Shown one piece after another: positions 55,685-60,615 of a stretch of 64,000 nt of DNA (position 1 is its first letter; each line of letters opens with the position of its first letter). Under the pieces are notes generated by a model. The model saw only the letters and a program-made list of their open reading frames with translations, did no database searches and was not told the DNA's origin. This DNA is from Guptibacillus hwajinpoensis (lineage in GTDB: Bacteria > Bacillota > Bacilli > Bacillales > Guptibacillaceae), in assembly GCF_020171785.1 (NCBI RefSeq), contig NZ_JAIVAE010000004.1, forward strand, positions 186,001 through 250,000. Direction: 5' to 3'. The translations under genes and the position numbers were made by a program.

Positions 55685-56845
55685 TTAAGTTTCTTCAGAG
55701 TCATGCTGTTGCACCTCATTAATCAAGATGTCGATCACTTCAGGCCGAGAAAATTCCTTTGGTGGACGCTGCCCATTTTTCAGCATTTCTCGAACTTTTG
55801 TACCGCTCAGGTGAAGGTGACATTCACTGTCGTGTGGACACGTTTTGGAAGTTGCCATGCTTGCACATTGCTCACAGTAAAAAGCATGTTCGAAAGCCAT
55901 GATCTCAATGCCAATTTCATCTTTTGCGAATTGGTTAAAGATGTTCTGAGCCGCGAACGTATTGTAAAAGTCGCCAACGCCTGCATGATCCCTTCCAACG
56001 ATAAAATGGGTACAGCCAAAGTTCTTCCGAACAATACTATGAAAAACGGCTTCACGCGGGCCGGCGTATCTCATGGCAGCAGGAAAAACAGAAAGAATAA
56101 CGCGGTCGGCCGGATAGTAGTTTTCTAAAAGAGTATGATAGCTTTTCATGCGGATATCCGCTGAAATGTCATCTTTCTTTGTTTCCCCAACAAGCGGATG
56201 GATCAGAAGGCCATCAACCGTTTCGAGTGCTGTCTTTTGAAGGTACTCATGCGCGCGATGAATCGGATTGCGCGTTTGAAAACCTACAATCGTTTTCCAG
56301 CCACGTTGTTGAAAGGATTCTCTCAATTCGGCTGGCGTTTGAAAATTTTCCTGAAGTGCCTTTGGATGTTGGAGGAGGGTGATCGGTCCCCCAAGATTAA
56401 AAGCCTGCTGCTCGTACGTTTTTTGTACACCAGGGTGTGTTGGATCGTTAGTTCCGTAAACAGCATGTGCTTCTTCACGTTTGTTGGTTTCATAGATATC
56501 TTCTACTTCCATAAGTCCGTAGATTTCCCCATCATTCCCCTTTAAGCAAATAGTGGGGCTAAAAGATATTTGGTCACGCACTTCATTAGAGACGGAAAGT
56601 GTAATAGGCAAGCTCCAGATTGTCCCATTTGCGAGCCGCATTTTCGTTAAAACATTCTGGTAATCAGTTTGGTTCATAAAGCCGGTTAACGGACTGAATG
56701 CGCCGATTGCGATGAGATACAAATCAGATAAATTCCATGGTGTTAACGTAATCGCTGGAAACATTGCAGCTTTCTCAAGCAGCGCCAGGCGATCTTCTTC
56801 ACATGGAATGCGGTTCACTAGATGACCGCCATGTGGTTCAATCAT
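55685..56845 (-). CDS. sat: sulfate adenylyltransferase (ATP sulfurylase)
   Basis: 386 residues from ATG at 56845, after AAAGGAG. QTRNPIHRAHEYLQK and HFIVGRDHAGVGDFY are the ATP- and sulfate-binding motifs. A cysteine-rich segment (CEQCASMATSKTCPHD) is common in the prokaryotic homo-oligomeric enzyme. It makes adenosine phosphosulfate from ATP and sulfate. It is the first gene of the operon sat - permease - cysC - sulfotransferase. Unlike the assimilation operon of B. subtilis there is no cysH. Confidence 0.94.
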   Translation of the reverse strand: MIEPHGGHLVNRIPCEEDRLALLEKAAMFPAITLTPWNLSDLYLIAIGAFSPLTGFMNQTDYQNVLTKMRLANGTIWSLPITLSVSNEVRDQISFSPTICLKGNDGEIYGLMEVEDIYETNKREEAHAVYGTNDPTHPGVQKTYEQQAFNLGGPITLLQHPKALQENFQTPAELRESFQQRGWKTIVGFQTRNPIHRAHEYLQKTALETVDGLLIHPLVGETKKDDISADIRMKSYHTLLENYYPADRVILSVFPAAMRYAGPREAVFHSIVRKNFGCTHFIVGRDHAGVGDFYNTFAAQNIFNQFAKDEIGIEIMAFEHAFYCEQCASMATSKTCPHDSECHLHLSGTKVREMLKNGQRPPKEFSRPEVIDILINEVQQHDSEET

Positions 56846-56942
56846 AACTATTCTCCTTTCATGCTCGTTCAAGGATTATCGATGCTACTAGCTTATGAAA
56901 GAAGAGGAGGGGAAGAGAGGGCGAATGGGAAAAAAGGTTGTA

Positions 56943-56968
56943 GGGGGTCAGGCGCGAGCCTGACCCCC
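56943..56968. repeat. REP palindrome, copy 12
   Basis: GGGGGTCAGG and CCTGACCCCC around GCGCGAG-type centre. A tail CAAACAAACG and CAAAGAACACCC follow without a hairpin. Lies between the divergent sat and blaI-like units. Confidence 0.85.
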
Positions 56969-57012
56969 TCCGCAAACAAACGTCCTCCCACAAAGAACAC
57001 CCTCAATTCCTC

Positions 57013-57048
57013 TTGACCCCACCATCCATTTAAACTACACTGTGTAGT
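57013..57048 (+). promoter_or_regulatory. sigma-A promoter and BlaI-type operator of the blaI-like operon
   Basis: TTGACC (57013-57018), 17 bp, TACACT (57036-57041). The inverted repeat ACTACA CTG TGTAGT (57034-57048) covers the -10 box, the pattern of BlaI/MecI operators built on TACA/TGTA. A related palindrome precedes the DoxX gene. Confidence 0.75.
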
Positions 57049-57062
57049 GTGAGGTGGACGTG

Positions 57063-57473
57063 ATGAAAATTCAGCAGTTCAAGACAAATGAGACGGGGTT
57101 GAATCGTTTCTTTGGTTCGCTTGAAGCGAAGATAATAGACATTCTTTGGGATGGTCCGGAGATGACGATTAAAGATGTGAAGCAAAAGCTTGATCAGGAA
57201 AAGAGTACGAACTTTAACACGGTGATGACGGTCATGAATCGTCTTGTTGATAAAGGCGTACTTGCGAAGAGAACGGAGAAGCGAACGTCCATGTTCAAGC
57301 CGGTTTTCTCAAAAGAAGAGTTTTTACAAACGCAGTCGAAAGAGCTAACGCAGGATTTGATGGATGAATTCGGTCCGCTAGCGGTTAATCATATGCTTGA
57401 TGCGCTTGATGAAGCAGATCCTATTCTGATTGAAAAGCTTGAGCAAAAAATCAAGCAGCTAAAGGAGAAGTAA
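57063..57473 (+). CDS. BlaI/MecI/CopY-family repressor
   Basis: 136 residues from ATG 57063 (GAGGTGGA before it). The winged helix is SLEAKIIDILWDGPEMTIKD followed by NTVMTVMNRLVDKGVLAKR. The C-terminal part is a helical dimerisation domain. BlaI-type repressors leave DNA when cut by their partner protease. The next gene is a M56 protease with one base between. Operators at 57034 and 58338 define its probable targets. The regulon is not a beta-lactamase one, since none is present. Confidence 0.9.
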   Translation: MKIQQFKTNETGLNRFFGSLEAKIIDILWDGPEMTIKDVKQKLDQEKSTNFNTVMTVMNRLVDKGVLAKRTEKRTSMFKPVFSKEEFLQTQSKELTQDLMDEFGPLAVNHMLDALDEADPILIEKLEQKIKQLKEK

Positions 57474-57474
57474 G

Positions 57475-58314
57475 ATGAAAATCAAACAGACAGGGCTTGT
57501 TTTCACGCTGTCTCTTTTTCTCGTCGCAGCTGTGGTCGTGCAAATGGCGATGTACAGTCTGCATCTTTTCTCAAACTGGAATCTGATATTTACCGTTCTT
57601 GAAGCTTGTCATAACTTGTTTCGCGCAATCGGCATATCATCGATGAATGTTTTTTTAGAAGTGCTGATTCTTTCAACGTTAACGCTTGTTGTGATTGTGC
57701 TCGTGAAGCAGTTTGCACGGTTCATTACTTTTTCAAAACGAGTGTCGCTTTTACAAGACGACCCAGCTACAAAGAAGGTAATCGTTCACTATAATCTGAA
57801 CCAAATCACCGTTATCACAAGCGAAGAACCGATCGCACTTACATATGGGCTGATCAAGCCGAAGATCGTAGTTTCGACTGCGCTTGTGAACATGCTTACT
57901 GAAGAAGAGCTTCGTGCCGTCATTTGTCATGAACAATTTCACCAACAGCATCGTGACCCGTTAAAAAAGTTTCTCATCACGCTTTTCGTGACCGCGCTCT
58001 GGTACGTTCCGATCCTTAAATGGGTATCGAAACACTATCAAACGCTGAGGGAGATTGAGGCGGATAAATTCGCGATGTTGCAAACAAACAATATGCTCGA
58101 CCTTAGTAGTGCACTTTTAAAATTGTTGAAAAACGAGTACAGGCAGCGACACGCGTTTGCCGTTTCGTTCGCAGATACGTCTGTGAATGACCGCATTCAG
58201 CACATTCTTTCTCCTGAAAAAGAAGTACATGCTACGCTGCCTGTGGAAACCATACTTTATTCAGTCTTTATCGTCTTAGGGTTAACCGTCATGTTCACGG
58301 TGGCGACACCCTAA
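57475..58314 (+). CDS. M56-family membrane protease (BlaR1-like, no sensor domain)
   Basis: 279 residues with about four membrane segments. The zinc motif ICHEQFHQQH (HExxH, residues near 151-158) with a downstream acidic ligand in REIEADKFAML. BlaR1 and MecR1 carry an extracellular penicillin-binding domain that is absent here, so the trigger must be sensed otherwise or by another protein. It presumably cleaves the repressor encoded one base upstream. Signal unknown. Confidence 0.87.
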   Translation: MKIKQTGLVFTLSLFLVAAVVVQMAMYSLHLFSNWNLIFTVLEACHNLFRAIGISSMNVFLEVLILSTLTLVVIVLVKQFARFITFSKRVSLLQDDPATKKVIVHYNLNQITVITSEEPIALTYGLIKPKIVVSTALVNMLTEEELRAVICHEQFHQQHRDPLKKFLITLFVTALWYVPILKWVSKHYQTLREIEADKFAMLQTNNMLDLSSALLKLLKNEYRQRHAFAVSFADTSVNDRIQHILSPEKEVHATLPVETILYSVFIVLGLTVMFTVATP

Positions 58315-58337
58315 TTCTTTTTCGAAAATGAACACTA

Positions 58338-58349
58338 CACTACGTAGTG
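58338..58349. promoter_or_regulatory. BlaI-type operator before the DoxX-DsbA operon
   Basis: CACTACGTAGTG is a perfect palindrome 22 bp before the DoxX start, with the same ACTAC/GTAGT halves as the site at 57034. The -10-like TACACT (58336-58341) overlaps it. Confidence 0.65.
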
Positions 58350-58371
58350 CAATGCAAAGGAGAAATCATAT

Positions 58372-58776
58372 ATGAAATTATCACCAAACGTCGCCCTAGT
58401 CGTCCTTCGTCTCGCTCTTGGAGTTATTTTCACCGTCCATGGATTTGATAAGTTTGCAGGAGGAATTGAAAATACCGTTGGATTTTTTGAAAGCATTGGC
58501 ATAAGTGGTGGATTAGCTTATGTCGTGGCAACAATCGAACTTGTAGGTGGTCTGCTTATGATTGTTGGTCTCGGAACACGCATCGTCGCTGCGCTTTTTA
58601 TCATTGTGATGCTCGGAGCGATTTTCACGGTGAAAAGCGGAACGGGATTTATCGGAGGTTACGAGCTTGATCTCGCCCTTCTCGGTATGTCACTCGCGCT
58701 ACTTATAAGCGGTGGTGGAACGATTTCTGTCGATGCTAAACTTTTTTCAAAACAAGGTGAGGGAGTTCAAGGATAA
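58372..58776 (+). CDS. DoxX-family membrane protein
   Basis: 134 residues with four membrane segments. VVLRLALGVIFTVHGFDKFA and ELVGGLLMIVGLGTRIVAAL are typical DoxX blocks. DoxX proteins cooperate with thiol or redox enzymes in some bacteria. The next gene overlaps (TAATG) and encodes a DsbA-like protein, so they are made together. Repression by the BlaI-type regulator is suggested by the operator upstream. Confidence 0.88.
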   Translation: MKLSPNVALVVLRLALGVIFTVHGFDKFAGGIENTVGFFESIGISGGLAYVVATIELVGGLLMIVGLGTRIVAALFIIVMLGAIFTVKSGTGFIGGYELDLALLGMSLALLISGGGTISVDAKLFSKQGEGVQG

Positions 58777-59465
58777 TGGCAAATTCTAAAAATAAAAAGA
58801 AGAACCAGGCGACGAAGTCAAAACAGAAGCCGAAAGCGTGGTTGTATGGATTAGCGGCTGCGGCGGCTGTTATTATCGTCGTTGTCATCATCATGACAAC
58901 TGGATCAAACTCGGGCGGGTCGAGTGAAGAAGCAATGAACCAGCCTTTTCTTGGAGATGAAAATGCCCAGGTGGAAGTGATCGAATTTGGTGATTACAAA
59001 TGTCCTTACTGTAAATCGTTTGAACAATCGTTTTTCCCGCAAATCGATCAGGAGCTAATTCAAACGGGGGATGTGAAATTTACGTTTATGAACTATCCGT
59101 TTATTAATGTCGATTCCAATCGCTCGGCGGAATTTGCTGAAGTCGTGTACCAAGAGCTCGGCAACGACGTTTTCTGGGAGTTCCATAGCTTAATGTATGA
59201 AAAGCAAACCGAAGGAACGGAACAGCAGGATATTTATACAGAAGATTACCTCGTCGAAACGTTGAAAGAAATCACTAATGAAGAGAAAGCGGAGCAAGTG
59301 CTCACTGCATTTCAGGACGGTGCTGGTGAAGAAGCGGTGGAGTACGATCTTAAACGTGCGAAGGATTTAGACGTCAGCGGGACACCGGCGCTATTCGTAA
59401 ACGGTGAACCGTTTGAAGGGCAGACGATCGAGGATTTGAAGAAAATGGTGGAGGAAGCGAAGTAA
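58776..59465 (+). CDS. membrane-anchored DsbA-like thiol oxidoreductase (BdbD type)
   Basis: 229 residues. A basic N-terminus and one membrane segment (PKAWLYGLAAAAAVIIVVVI) anchor it, with the thioredoxin-fold domain outside. The active site is FGDYKCPYCKSFE (CPYC), and the cis-Pro loop is SGTPALFVNG. It should form or isomerise disulfides in exported proteins. It overlaps the DoxX gene by one stop/start codon. A terminator follows. Confidence 0.92.
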   Translation: MANSKNKKKNQATKSKQKPKAWLYGLAAAAAVIIVVVIIMTTGSNSGGSSEEAMNQPFLGDENAQVEVIEFGDYKCPYCKSFEQSFFPQIDQELIQTGDVKFTFMNYPFINVDSNRSAEFAEVVYQELGNDVFWEFHSLMYEKQTEGTEQQDIYTEDYLVETLKEITNEEKAEQVLTAFQDGAGEEAVEYDLKRAKDLDVSGTPALFVNGEPFEGQTIEDLKKMVEEAK

Positions 59466-59491
59466 GGGTAGGAGTAAGTTGAAGGAAATAG

Positions 59492-59537
59492 AAGCCGTCA
59501 GTGGTTCACTTGTTGTGAGCCACTGACGGCTTTTTTA
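59492..59537 (+). terminator. terminator of the DoxX-DsbA operon
   Basis: AGCCGTCAGTGG pairs with CCACTGACGGCT, followed by TTTTTT. Confidence 0.9.
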
Positions 59538-59618
59538 TAATGTGATAGGAAGGTTCAAGTGATTCCGCAATTACAAATGGATATGTGTTGTAAATATTGT
59601 ACAATTGAAAGTGGGGCA

Positions 59619-59693
59619 GGGGGTCAGGCACGAGCCTGACCCCCTCAAAAGACAAAAGCGTGAAAAGTGTTCCTCACACAGGGACACTTTTCA
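59619..59693 (+). repeat. REP element, copy 13, with tail hairpin
   Basis: Core at 59619-59644, then AAAAGACAAAA and the hairpin TGAAAAGTGT-TCC / GGGACACTTTTCA (59661-59693). Confidence 0.85.
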
Positions 59694-59764
59694 CATTTCA
59701 TTAAAGGGCGTTAGTTACTTTGAAGCCATATCTATCAAGGGATTTGAATGGAATGAATAGCGAA

Positions 59765-59788
59765 GGGGTCAGGCTCGAACCTGACCCC
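59765..59788. repeat. REP palindrome, copy 14
   Basis: GGGGTCAGGCTC with its near reverse complement, one mismatch at the centre. The following sequence is a 13-bp tandem array instead of the usual tail. Confidence 0.85.
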
Positions 59789-59903
59789 ATCAAAGAACAC
59801 CATCAAAGAACACCATCAAAGAACACCATCAAAGAACACCATCAAAGAACACCATCAAAGAACACCATCAAAGAACACCATCAAAGAACACCATCAAAGA
59901 ACA
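59789..59903 (+). repeat. 13-bp tandem repeat array (8 full units and a partial ninth)
   Basis: ATCAAAGAACACC repeated 8 times without a mismatch, then ATCAAAGAACA. The unit resembles the REP tail TCAAAAGACA. It ends 22 bp before the response regulator start and 7 bp before its ribosome binding site. An open frame across it (HHQRTPSKN repeats) is a by-product of the unit length and not a gene. Confidence 0.9.
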
Positions 59904-59925
59904 AACCAAAGGGAGGGTGCTCCAA

Positions 59926-60615
59926 TTGAAACTATTAATGGTTGAAGATGATAAAACGATTGCGACGGGACTCGACTATTCCTTGCAAAACGAGGGGTAT
60001 GAGACGATTGTTTGCCATGATACTCAATCGGCCCGGAACGTGCTTACGGAGCAATTACATAAAATCGATTTGTGTTTATTTGATTTATCCTTACCAGATG
60101 GTAGCGGATATGATCTTTGTGAGTTTGTGAAGAAACGTCGTGATGTACCGGTTATTTTTCTCACAGCATTTGATGATGAAGTGAATGTGGTGATGGGGCT
60201 TGATATGGGGGCGGATGATTACATCACAAAGCCGTTTCGCATTCGTGAGCTACTTTCACGAATTAAGTCAGTGTTGCGTCGTTACAATAAGCAGCCGCAG
60301 CCACAATCAACAAACGTCATTACGGTTGAAGATATTCGAATCAATATGCTTGAAGGGAAAGTATATAAGAAAGGTGAGGAAGTGCTCCTCACGGCTCTTG
60401 AGTACAGGCTTTTCCTCATTTTCGCTAATCATGTTGGACAGGTTTTAACGAGAAATCAATTATTAGAACGGATATGGGATGTGGCTGGTGATTTCGTTAA
60501 CGACAATACGCTGACAGTCTACATCAAGCGGCTTCGCGAAAAGCTAGAGGATAACCCACAGAGCCCGAAAATCATTAAAACTGTACGTGGTTTAGGTTAT
60601 AAGGTGGGTGATTAG
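59926..60615 (+). CDS. OmpR/PhoB-family response regulator
   Basis: 229 residues from TTG 59926, 8 bases after GGGAGGG. A GTG at 59917 overlaps that site and is rejected. Receiver domain with MVEDDKTI acidic pocket, phosphorylated Asp53 in LCLFDLSLPDGSGYDL and Lys in DYITKPF. A winged-helix DNA-binding domain ends the protein (LTALEYRLFLIFANHVGQVL, VYIKRLREKL, TVRGLGYKVGD). It is paired with the kinase gene overlapping by 8 bp. It probably activates the downstream ABC transporter via the repeats at 61643. Confidence 0.94.
   Translation: MKLLMVEDDKTIATGLDYSLQNEGYETIVCHDTQSARNVLTEQLHKIDLCLFDLSLPDGSGYDLCEFVKKRRDVPVIFLTAFDDEVNVVMGLDMGADDYITKPFRIRELLSRIKSVLRRYNKQPQPQSTNVITVEDIRINMLEGKVYKKGEEVLLTALEYRLFLIFANHVGQVLTRNQLLERIWDVAGDFVNDNTLTVYIKRLREKLEDNPQSPKIIKTVRGLGYKVGD

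Follow-up and report, generated by a model that had tools for sequence, protein, structure and literature searches.

The locus at 57063-59465 of the window (the whole stretch of 64,000 nucleotides of Guptibacillus hwajinpoensis DNA analyzed here) raises the question of what a BlaI-like repressor and an M56 metalloprotease control when they stand directly upstream of genes for DoxX and a DsbA-like protein, and what signal they might receive. Our reading as a whole, to which we assign a probability of roughly 0.65, is that these genes form a self-regulated envelope thiol-redox unit built from BlaI-M56 parts. On this reading, a sensor family familiar from antibiotic resistance would have an apparent redox branch across many families of the Bacilli, and the comparison points to a probable regulator and to a single cysteine open to testing. 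To our knowledge, the disulfide-forming machinery of Gram-positive bacteria has no known regulator dedicated to it. A search of the open-access literature found no published link of BlaI to DoxX, DsbA, or BdbD; the constituent families are known, and what seems new is how they are combined, how widely the combination occurs, and the cysteine.

Layout of the locus and its relatives

The four genes are consecutive and all on the + strand, in a genome of 4.24 Mb. The first (57063..57473, +) encodes a BlaI-like repressor of 136 aa that matches PF03965 at E 8.5e-24 and scores 84.6 bits against a curated cut-off of 22.6; its start is the ATG at 57063, which is kept in relatives, and the mechanically called open reading frame begins at a GTG at 57054. 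Relatives in the PDB are 2g9w, 1p6r, MecI (1sd6/1okr), and the penicillinase repressor 1sd4. The closest of these by sequence are 2g9w, labelled a conserved hypothetical protein, which we take to be Mycobacterium tuberculosis BlaI (Rv1846c), and the penicillinase repressor 1p6r, presumably that of B. licheniformis. The targets of M. tuberculosis BlaI are beta-lactamase and respiratory genes, and the literature search found no DoxX-DsbA link for it. The second gene (57475..58314, +) encodes a short M56 metalloprotease of 279 aa (PF05569, E 8.2e-13) with BlaR1 (8exs, E 2.1e-5) as its closest solved relative. Next, behind the ribosome-binding sequence AAAGGAG (58356..58362, +), comes doxX (58372..58776, +), which encodes a membrane protein of 134 aa (PF07681, E 1.9e-22; 80.1 bits against a curated cut-off of 23.6). 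The last gene (58776..59465, +) encodes a dsbA/bdbD-like, membrane-anchored thiol oxidase that matches PF13462 (E 3.3e-29) and also PF01323, with a membrane segment at 19-48 and a CPYC motif at Cys76/Cys79; the CxxC is present in all 25 of the aligned proteins, and the closest solved relative is BdbD (3eu3, E 4.2e-27). A scan of 56800-60000 gave no Rfam matches.

By their families, DsbA would form disulfides in envelope proteins and DoxX would serve DsbA in the membrane. The window's DoxX contains zero cysteines, which excludes a DsbB-type thiol relay through this protein, and no cysteine column reaches 30% in an alignment of 26 DoxX sequences. Across loci, DoxX alternates with, or adjoins, DsbB, and a weak match of DoxX to MauE (PF07291, E 2.3e-5, below that family's cut-off) would fit a helper for a thioredoxin-fold partner. 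The arrangement resembles BdbD-BdbC of Bacillus, in that the window's DsbA matches BdbD and a BdbC-like DsbB follows dsbA in several relatives, but in the window a cysteine-free DoxX stands in BdbC's place. DoxX has been tied to thiol homeostasis in M. tuberculosis, where it belongs to a DoxX-SodA-SseA membrane oxidoreductase complex, and to the oxidant response in Haemophilus, where the doxX operon is induced by HOCl under the ECF sigma factor RpoE2 (PMC7907618). Control in Haemophilus is thus by an ECF factor, unlike here, and the part of that source available to us does not mention a DsbA or BlaI partner.

Searches for relatives of the M56 protein gave hits in 21 of 101 near genomes at E 1e-3, a count that takes in long M56 proteins. 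At E 1e-15, 42 of 397 genomes of the order had a relative, two of these proteins being long, and at E 1e-20 the figure for the class was 51 of 398 genomes; this genome is included each time. The comparison covers 69 loci that encode a short M56 protein, 39 from the order and 30 stretches selected among the class-level places; the window is excluded from these 69 counted loci and included among the 70 M56 proteins compared. The set is redundant, containing seven genus mates and the near-identical groups L104-L107 and L111-L115, and the loci are mutually related, so that the counts overstate independence. Genes for DoxX, DsbA, or DsbB, identified by HMM, or CcdA/TlpA-type genes lie near 58 of the 69 (in L245, the CcdA/TlpA identity was assigned by likeness to L244). 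One further locus (L056, in G057) is not counted, since no intact M56 was found in it; it keeps blaI with its site, dsbA, and dsbB, and the M56 gene is a short interrupted remnant between blaI and dsbA.

The window's own genome contains a second doxX-dsbA pair (L059, G000:C10:105673-106743), which lacks an operator and may be a housekeeping copy, and a DsbB gene lies elsewhere at C17:32350. A 23-bp palindrome, GGGTCAGGCNCGARCCTGACCCC, occurs at 56945-56967, 59621-59643, and 59766-59788 and in further copies in the window; genome-wide, with up to 2 mismatches, it has 45 forward and 43 reverse matches against 0 for the reversed control. These lie on contigs C1, C4, C5, C6, C8, and C22, mostly C4, C6, C1, and C22, and the palindrome is a REP-like, regionally clustered element. 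A perfect tandem array of 9.0 copies of CCATCAAAGAACA spans 59787-59903, directly before a response-regulator gene.

Candidate operators and the genes they accompany

The first-pass annotation had pointed to ACTACA/TGTAGT repeats over the blaI promoter and again before doxX. This holds up: with at most 1 mismatch, ACTACA-N3-YGTAGT matches the window at only two places, 57034 and 58334. The 15-bp cores, ACTACACTGTGTAGT at 57034-57048 and ACTACACTACGTAGT at 58334-58348, are identical at 13 of 15 positions, and they define two candidate operators, site A (57033..57049, AACTACACTGTGTAGTG), the left half of which contains the -10 box TACACT (57036-57041), and site B (58333..58349, CACTACACTACGTAGTG), in the gap between M56 and doxX. 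The form shared by the two copies is (C)ACTAC-N5-GTAGTG, and TACA/TGTA-type operators are typical for the BlaI/MecI family. The 12-bp CACTACGTAGTG at 58338-58349, which the annotation had taken as the operator before doxX, is in the wrong register, being the right-hand part of the CACTAC-N5-GTAGTG that relatives keep (for example CACTACGTGATGTAGTG in L042).

Counted on both strands, the window has 4 matches to ACTACA-N3-YGTAGT against 0.15 expected, a number reached in 0 of 100 shuffles. For CACTAC-N5-GTAGTG with up to 2 mismatches there are 4 window matches against 0.95 expected, and 4 of 100 shuffles reach 4, so this count alone is weak. Site A is the sole exact ACTACA-N3-TGTAGT in the genome, three places, site B among them, differ from it by 1 mismatch, and the degenerate form MACTAC-N5-GTAGTK occurs only at these two sites and at one match in a coding frame (C3:227387). 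At 2 mismatches, ACTACA-N3-TGTAGT is not enriched genome-wide (106 matches, where the reversed control gives 289), and the strength of the operators therefore comes from their position and conservation. It is likewise on position and conservation, not on genome-wide counts, that we reject chance palindromes.

With up to 2 mismatches in 12 allowed, site A is present in 58 of the 69 loci and site B in 46; 44 loci have both, 14 have A only (among them seven loci of family f44 with dsbA-dsbB), 2 have B only, and 9 have neither. By our reading, the loci with both sites span 11 families of the order. Outside this counting rule, L244 and L245 carry a site with 1 mismatch before a divergent TlpA-like gene.

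The sites also follow doxX and dsbA where these genes are turned around or moved away. In L049, a divergent dsbA has its own exact site, and in L117, L121, and L227, a divergent doxX is preceded by sites with 1-2 mismatches. Five f44 genomes (5.1-6.0 Mb) contain two exact sites that by their coordinates are 95-98 bp apart and lie far from blaI; in two of the five (L154 and L156), the exact pair precedes an unlinked doxX, with one site on TTGACT-N17-TACAAT and the other directly before the ribosome-binding site. In G200, 2.8 Mb of one contig separate the blaI locus (3,099 kb) from this doxX (290 kb). A fourth exact site in the f44 genomes lies between NlpC/P60 and amidase genes; in the four such stretches inspected (L155, L157-L159), it resembles the stem of a terminator followed by T-rich sequence, and it was not taken as an operator.

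Every member of the genus has additional doxX copies. By direct reading, both sites are carried by 8 of 8 genus genomes with the M56 gene, whereas five of the six without it have 0 sites and one (G002) has 1. The operator is present at all 8 BlaI-linked doxX-dsbA pairs. The cleanest negative control is that, with up to 2 mismatches allowed, it is present at 0 of the 14 pairs read elsewhere than beside blaI, each from a different genome; in G003, a doxX that lacks a dsbA partner (L193) shows two matches with 2 mismatches. Across the order, an exact site occurs in 26 of 42 M56-positive genomes and in 29 of 355 M56-negative ones (Fisher p 4e-15, uncorrected for kinship); in G115, one of these 26, site and M56 are on different contigs. 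A single exact match carries little weight, as many genomes also have hits to the reversed control; within the genus this control has 0-7 matches per genome and exceeds the motif in most. Six of the 29 M56-free genomes were opened (L160-L165): in L163-L165 the sites are inside long frames, and in L160-L162 they are between genes, those of L160 and L161 being hairpin-like.

That a BlaI-like repressor controls DoxX-DsbA, as the annotation had proposed, is thus upheld, by comparison between genomes, as very probable by the conserved double sites, the sites at divergent and unlinked copies, and the lack of sites at the 14 unlinked pairs. DoxX would thereby be tied to DsbA through shared operators, beyond linkage alone. 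A dimer of the repressor probably binds CACTAC-N5-GTAGTG both over its own -10 box and at the copy before doxX, a well-supported step in the proposed mechanism.

Possible function of the site before doxX

The two sites differ in their surroundings. Site A overlaps the -10 box of TTGACC-N17-TACACT (57013-57041; -35 box TTGACC at 57013..57018, +), which is the only promoter-like match in 56900-58450, a stretch in which shuffles average 2.3. Among relatives, the left half of the site reads TACAAT or TACACT in 51 of 58 site-A sequences and in 13 of 49 site-B sequences, and a hexamer sharing 4 or more of its 6 letters with TTGACA, at a distance of 16-18 nt from the TAC of the site, accompanies 54 of 58 and 8 of 49, respectively. 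Some exceptions arise because, at loci with several upstream sites, the first one was counted as A. The 49 site-B sequences come from 46 loci; two of them, in L105 and L107, fall within doxX with 2 mismatches each and are likely noise. Site B is instead accompanied by a T-tract, which in the window (58318..58322, +) ends 10 nt before the site. A T-run of at least 5 is found in 39 of 49 site-B sequences, against a mean of 7.6 and a maximum of 15 in 500 single-letter shuffles, and in 2 of 58 site-A sequences; in 33 of the 49, exactly 9 or 10 nt separate the end of such a run from the site.

This anatomy suggests that site B and the T-tract act together as a block on polymerase arriving from upstream, which would be stalled over a U-rich hybrid. 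For the window's genus, we lean slightly toward site B being such a block on read-through and not the operator of a promoter of its own, and the block itself is a reasoned guess. Regulators bound within a transcribed region, such as the Kpn2I C-protein and LacI, are reported to stop RNA polymerase (PMC6237814, PMC4132739). In contrast to those cases, the block proposed here is read from anatomy alone, and it includes a phased T-tract. Under this scheme, site B would be a second lock on read-through from the leaky blaI-M56 promoter, aided by the upstream T-tract, and would keep doxX-dsbA off while the sensor stays at a low level. As to the T-tract being a terminator, this was rejected as a general explanation, as hairpins with z < -1.5 precede it in no more than 14 of 36 distinct cases; at that frequency, plain attenuation is possible. 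These hairpins speak against the read-through block, as does the lack of a phased T-tract at the unlinked doxX copies.

The alternative that site B serves as operator for a doxX-dsbA promoter distinct from that of blaI, with no read-through block, is one to which we give a lesser but still appreciable chance. It draws on L104-L107, which carry TTGATT-N17-TACACT at site B, and on L119, where the first of two sites before doxX lies on TTGACG-N17-TACAAT; given these -35-like boxes, a promoter could be controlled through site B in these loci, and in some other clades the site may cover a second promoter. The 8 of 49 site-B sequences with TTGACA-like letters in place point in the same direction, as does the weak -35-like CTGATT or CTAATT that the M56 stop codon and the T-tract together give in other clades. 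Against this, the best -35 match at 16-18 nt has only 1-2 of 6 letters in the window's genus, some congeners have TACGTG, TACGAT, or TACGAC in the place of the -10 box, and the promoter scan gave no match at site B. Furthermore, in L154, L156, and L119, the site adjacent to doxX is downstream of another site that lies on a good promoter. Least probable of all the explanations considered is that sites A and B are chance repeats or RNA hairpins instead of operators: site B could form a stem, a minus-strand terminator-like match covers it, and the loose pattern is not enriched genome-wide, but the half-site letters are kept, including at site A and at unlinked doxX, and CATTAC or GTAGTT variants have no compensation on the opposite arm, so that an RNA hairpin at site B is disfavored because letters, not pairing, are conserved.

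The proposed sensor loop and its signal

The M56 protein was described in the annotation as lacking a penicillin sensor, and this is confirmed, as it has 279 aa, ends after the last membrane segment, and has no match to a sensor Pfam family. Its zinc site, formed by H152, E153, and H156 (HExxH, 152-156) with E193 and D197, is invariant in 8 of 8 alignment rows. By hydropathy and the positive-inside rule, the loop at about 34-53, after the first membrane segment, is predicted to be extracytoplasmic, and it holds the single extracytoplasmic cysteine, C45. Of the 70 short M56 proteins, 65 retain this cysteine, and it is missing from each of the 8 other M56 proteins in the comparison (seven with 574-787 aa, one with 316 aa). 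The short proteins without it are those of L054 and L238-L241, and none of these five loci has a thiol-redox neighbor; among the 64 counted loci whose M56 has the cysteine, 58 do (Fisher p 4e-5, kinship ignored); six loci bear the cysteine without such a neighbor. In divergent M56 proteins with 4-7 cysteines (L123, L243-L246), the aligned cysteine is uncertain.

In a weak HMM alignment that starts at BlaR1 residue 82, C45 falls opposite BlaR1 residue 87, within EL1. In BlaR1, EL1 comprises residues 56-96, of which 87-94 occupy the penicillin-binding groove, and displacement of the loop starts signaling (PMC9834060). The structure predicted for the M56 protein from a 4-row alignment has a pLDDT of 43.8; with this value and so weak a local alignment, we can only infer that the C45 loop corresponds to the signaling loop EL1. 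The short M56 protein would then sense the extracytoplasmic thiol state via its lone Cys45 and subsequently cut the repressor in the cytoplasm. A redox input is plausible on these sequence data, and one specific residue is implicated; we put the odds of a thiol-redox input through Cys45 as even. The residues aligned to the scissile Asn101-Phe102 of MecI/BlaI are Asn109-His110 here, and His110, invariant in 12 of 12 sequences, replaces an almost invariant P1' Phe. With Asn-His at the cut position, cleavage of the repressor may differ or not occur.

The locus is like BlaI-BlaR1 and MecI-MecR1 of Staphylococcus and Bacillus licheniformis in having a winged-helix repressor, predicted to bind over its own -10 box, and a paired M56 zinc protease (HExxH...E...D) with a loop that may be comparable to EL1. 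It differs in the sensor-less M56 of 279 aa with a cysteine in that loop, in the probable targets DoxX, DsbA, and DsbB, and in a cut position that is Asn-His and not Asn-Phe. Extended to a BlaI-M56 family of the Bacilli, the full chain would be that the loop cysteine directly reads the redox state of thiols outside the cytoplasm, the repressor is cleaved, and two locks, an operator on the promoter and a read-through block with a phased T-tract, release an operon or regulon for DoxX, DsbA, DsbB, or CcdA/TlpA, with DoxX as a cysteine-free partner of DsbA. We offer this extension tentatively and consider it doubtful in its entirety.

The annotation had suggested that the system senses wall or redox stress. 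The redox part gains from the conserved extracytoplasmic cysteine of M56 and from the CcdA/TlpA modules, and the wall part is left with an NlpC/P60 link in side branches. A non-thiol cue, such as wall damage, metal, or membrane state, with DoxX-DsbA repairing the result, has in our view a lesser but still appreciable chance. The side branches adjoin NlpC/P60 wall hydrolases, other neighbors are a His/Met-rich lipoprotein (L054) and proteins with wall-binding domains (L243, L246), and CopY, a copper-responsive repressor, belongs to the BlaI family; these would all suit such a cue. On the other hand, extracytoplasmic thiol-redox genes lie near 58 of the 69 loci, the only near-universal cysteine sits in the putative signaling loop, and NlpC/P60 genes without redox genes occur mainly where the cysteine is missing (L238, L239, and L241; L236 and L228 keep it). 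That the locus is a bla system for sensing beta-lactams that retained its regulator and lost the beta-lactamase has family membership of BlaI and M56 in its favor, but it is highly unlikely, as MACTAC-N5-GTAGTK has no places in the genome other than the two sites of this locus and the coding-frame match, and beta-lactam sensing is rejected because the penicillin-binding sensor domain is absent.

A distant short M56 adjoins CcdA/DsbD-like and TlpA/AhpC-TSA-like genes, an extracytoplasmic thiol module, in L235, L242, L244, L245, and L247; BlaI lies beside it in L235, L244, L245, and L247, and L242 ends at a contig end. Genes for NlpC/P60 wall endopeptidases adjoin blaI in L236, L238, L239, and L241 and were also seen in L228 and L155 (identified by Pfam in L236, L238, L239, L228, and L155 and by likeness in L241). 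In the first four, they are preceded by operator-like sites with 2 mismatches near TTGACA-type letters, and the loop cysteine of M56 is missing in three of these four. Finally, divergent BlaI-M56 pairs adjoin the His/Met-rich lipoprotein-like protein of L054 and the proteins with wall-binding domains of L243 and L246, neighbors that may indicate a metal or wall link.
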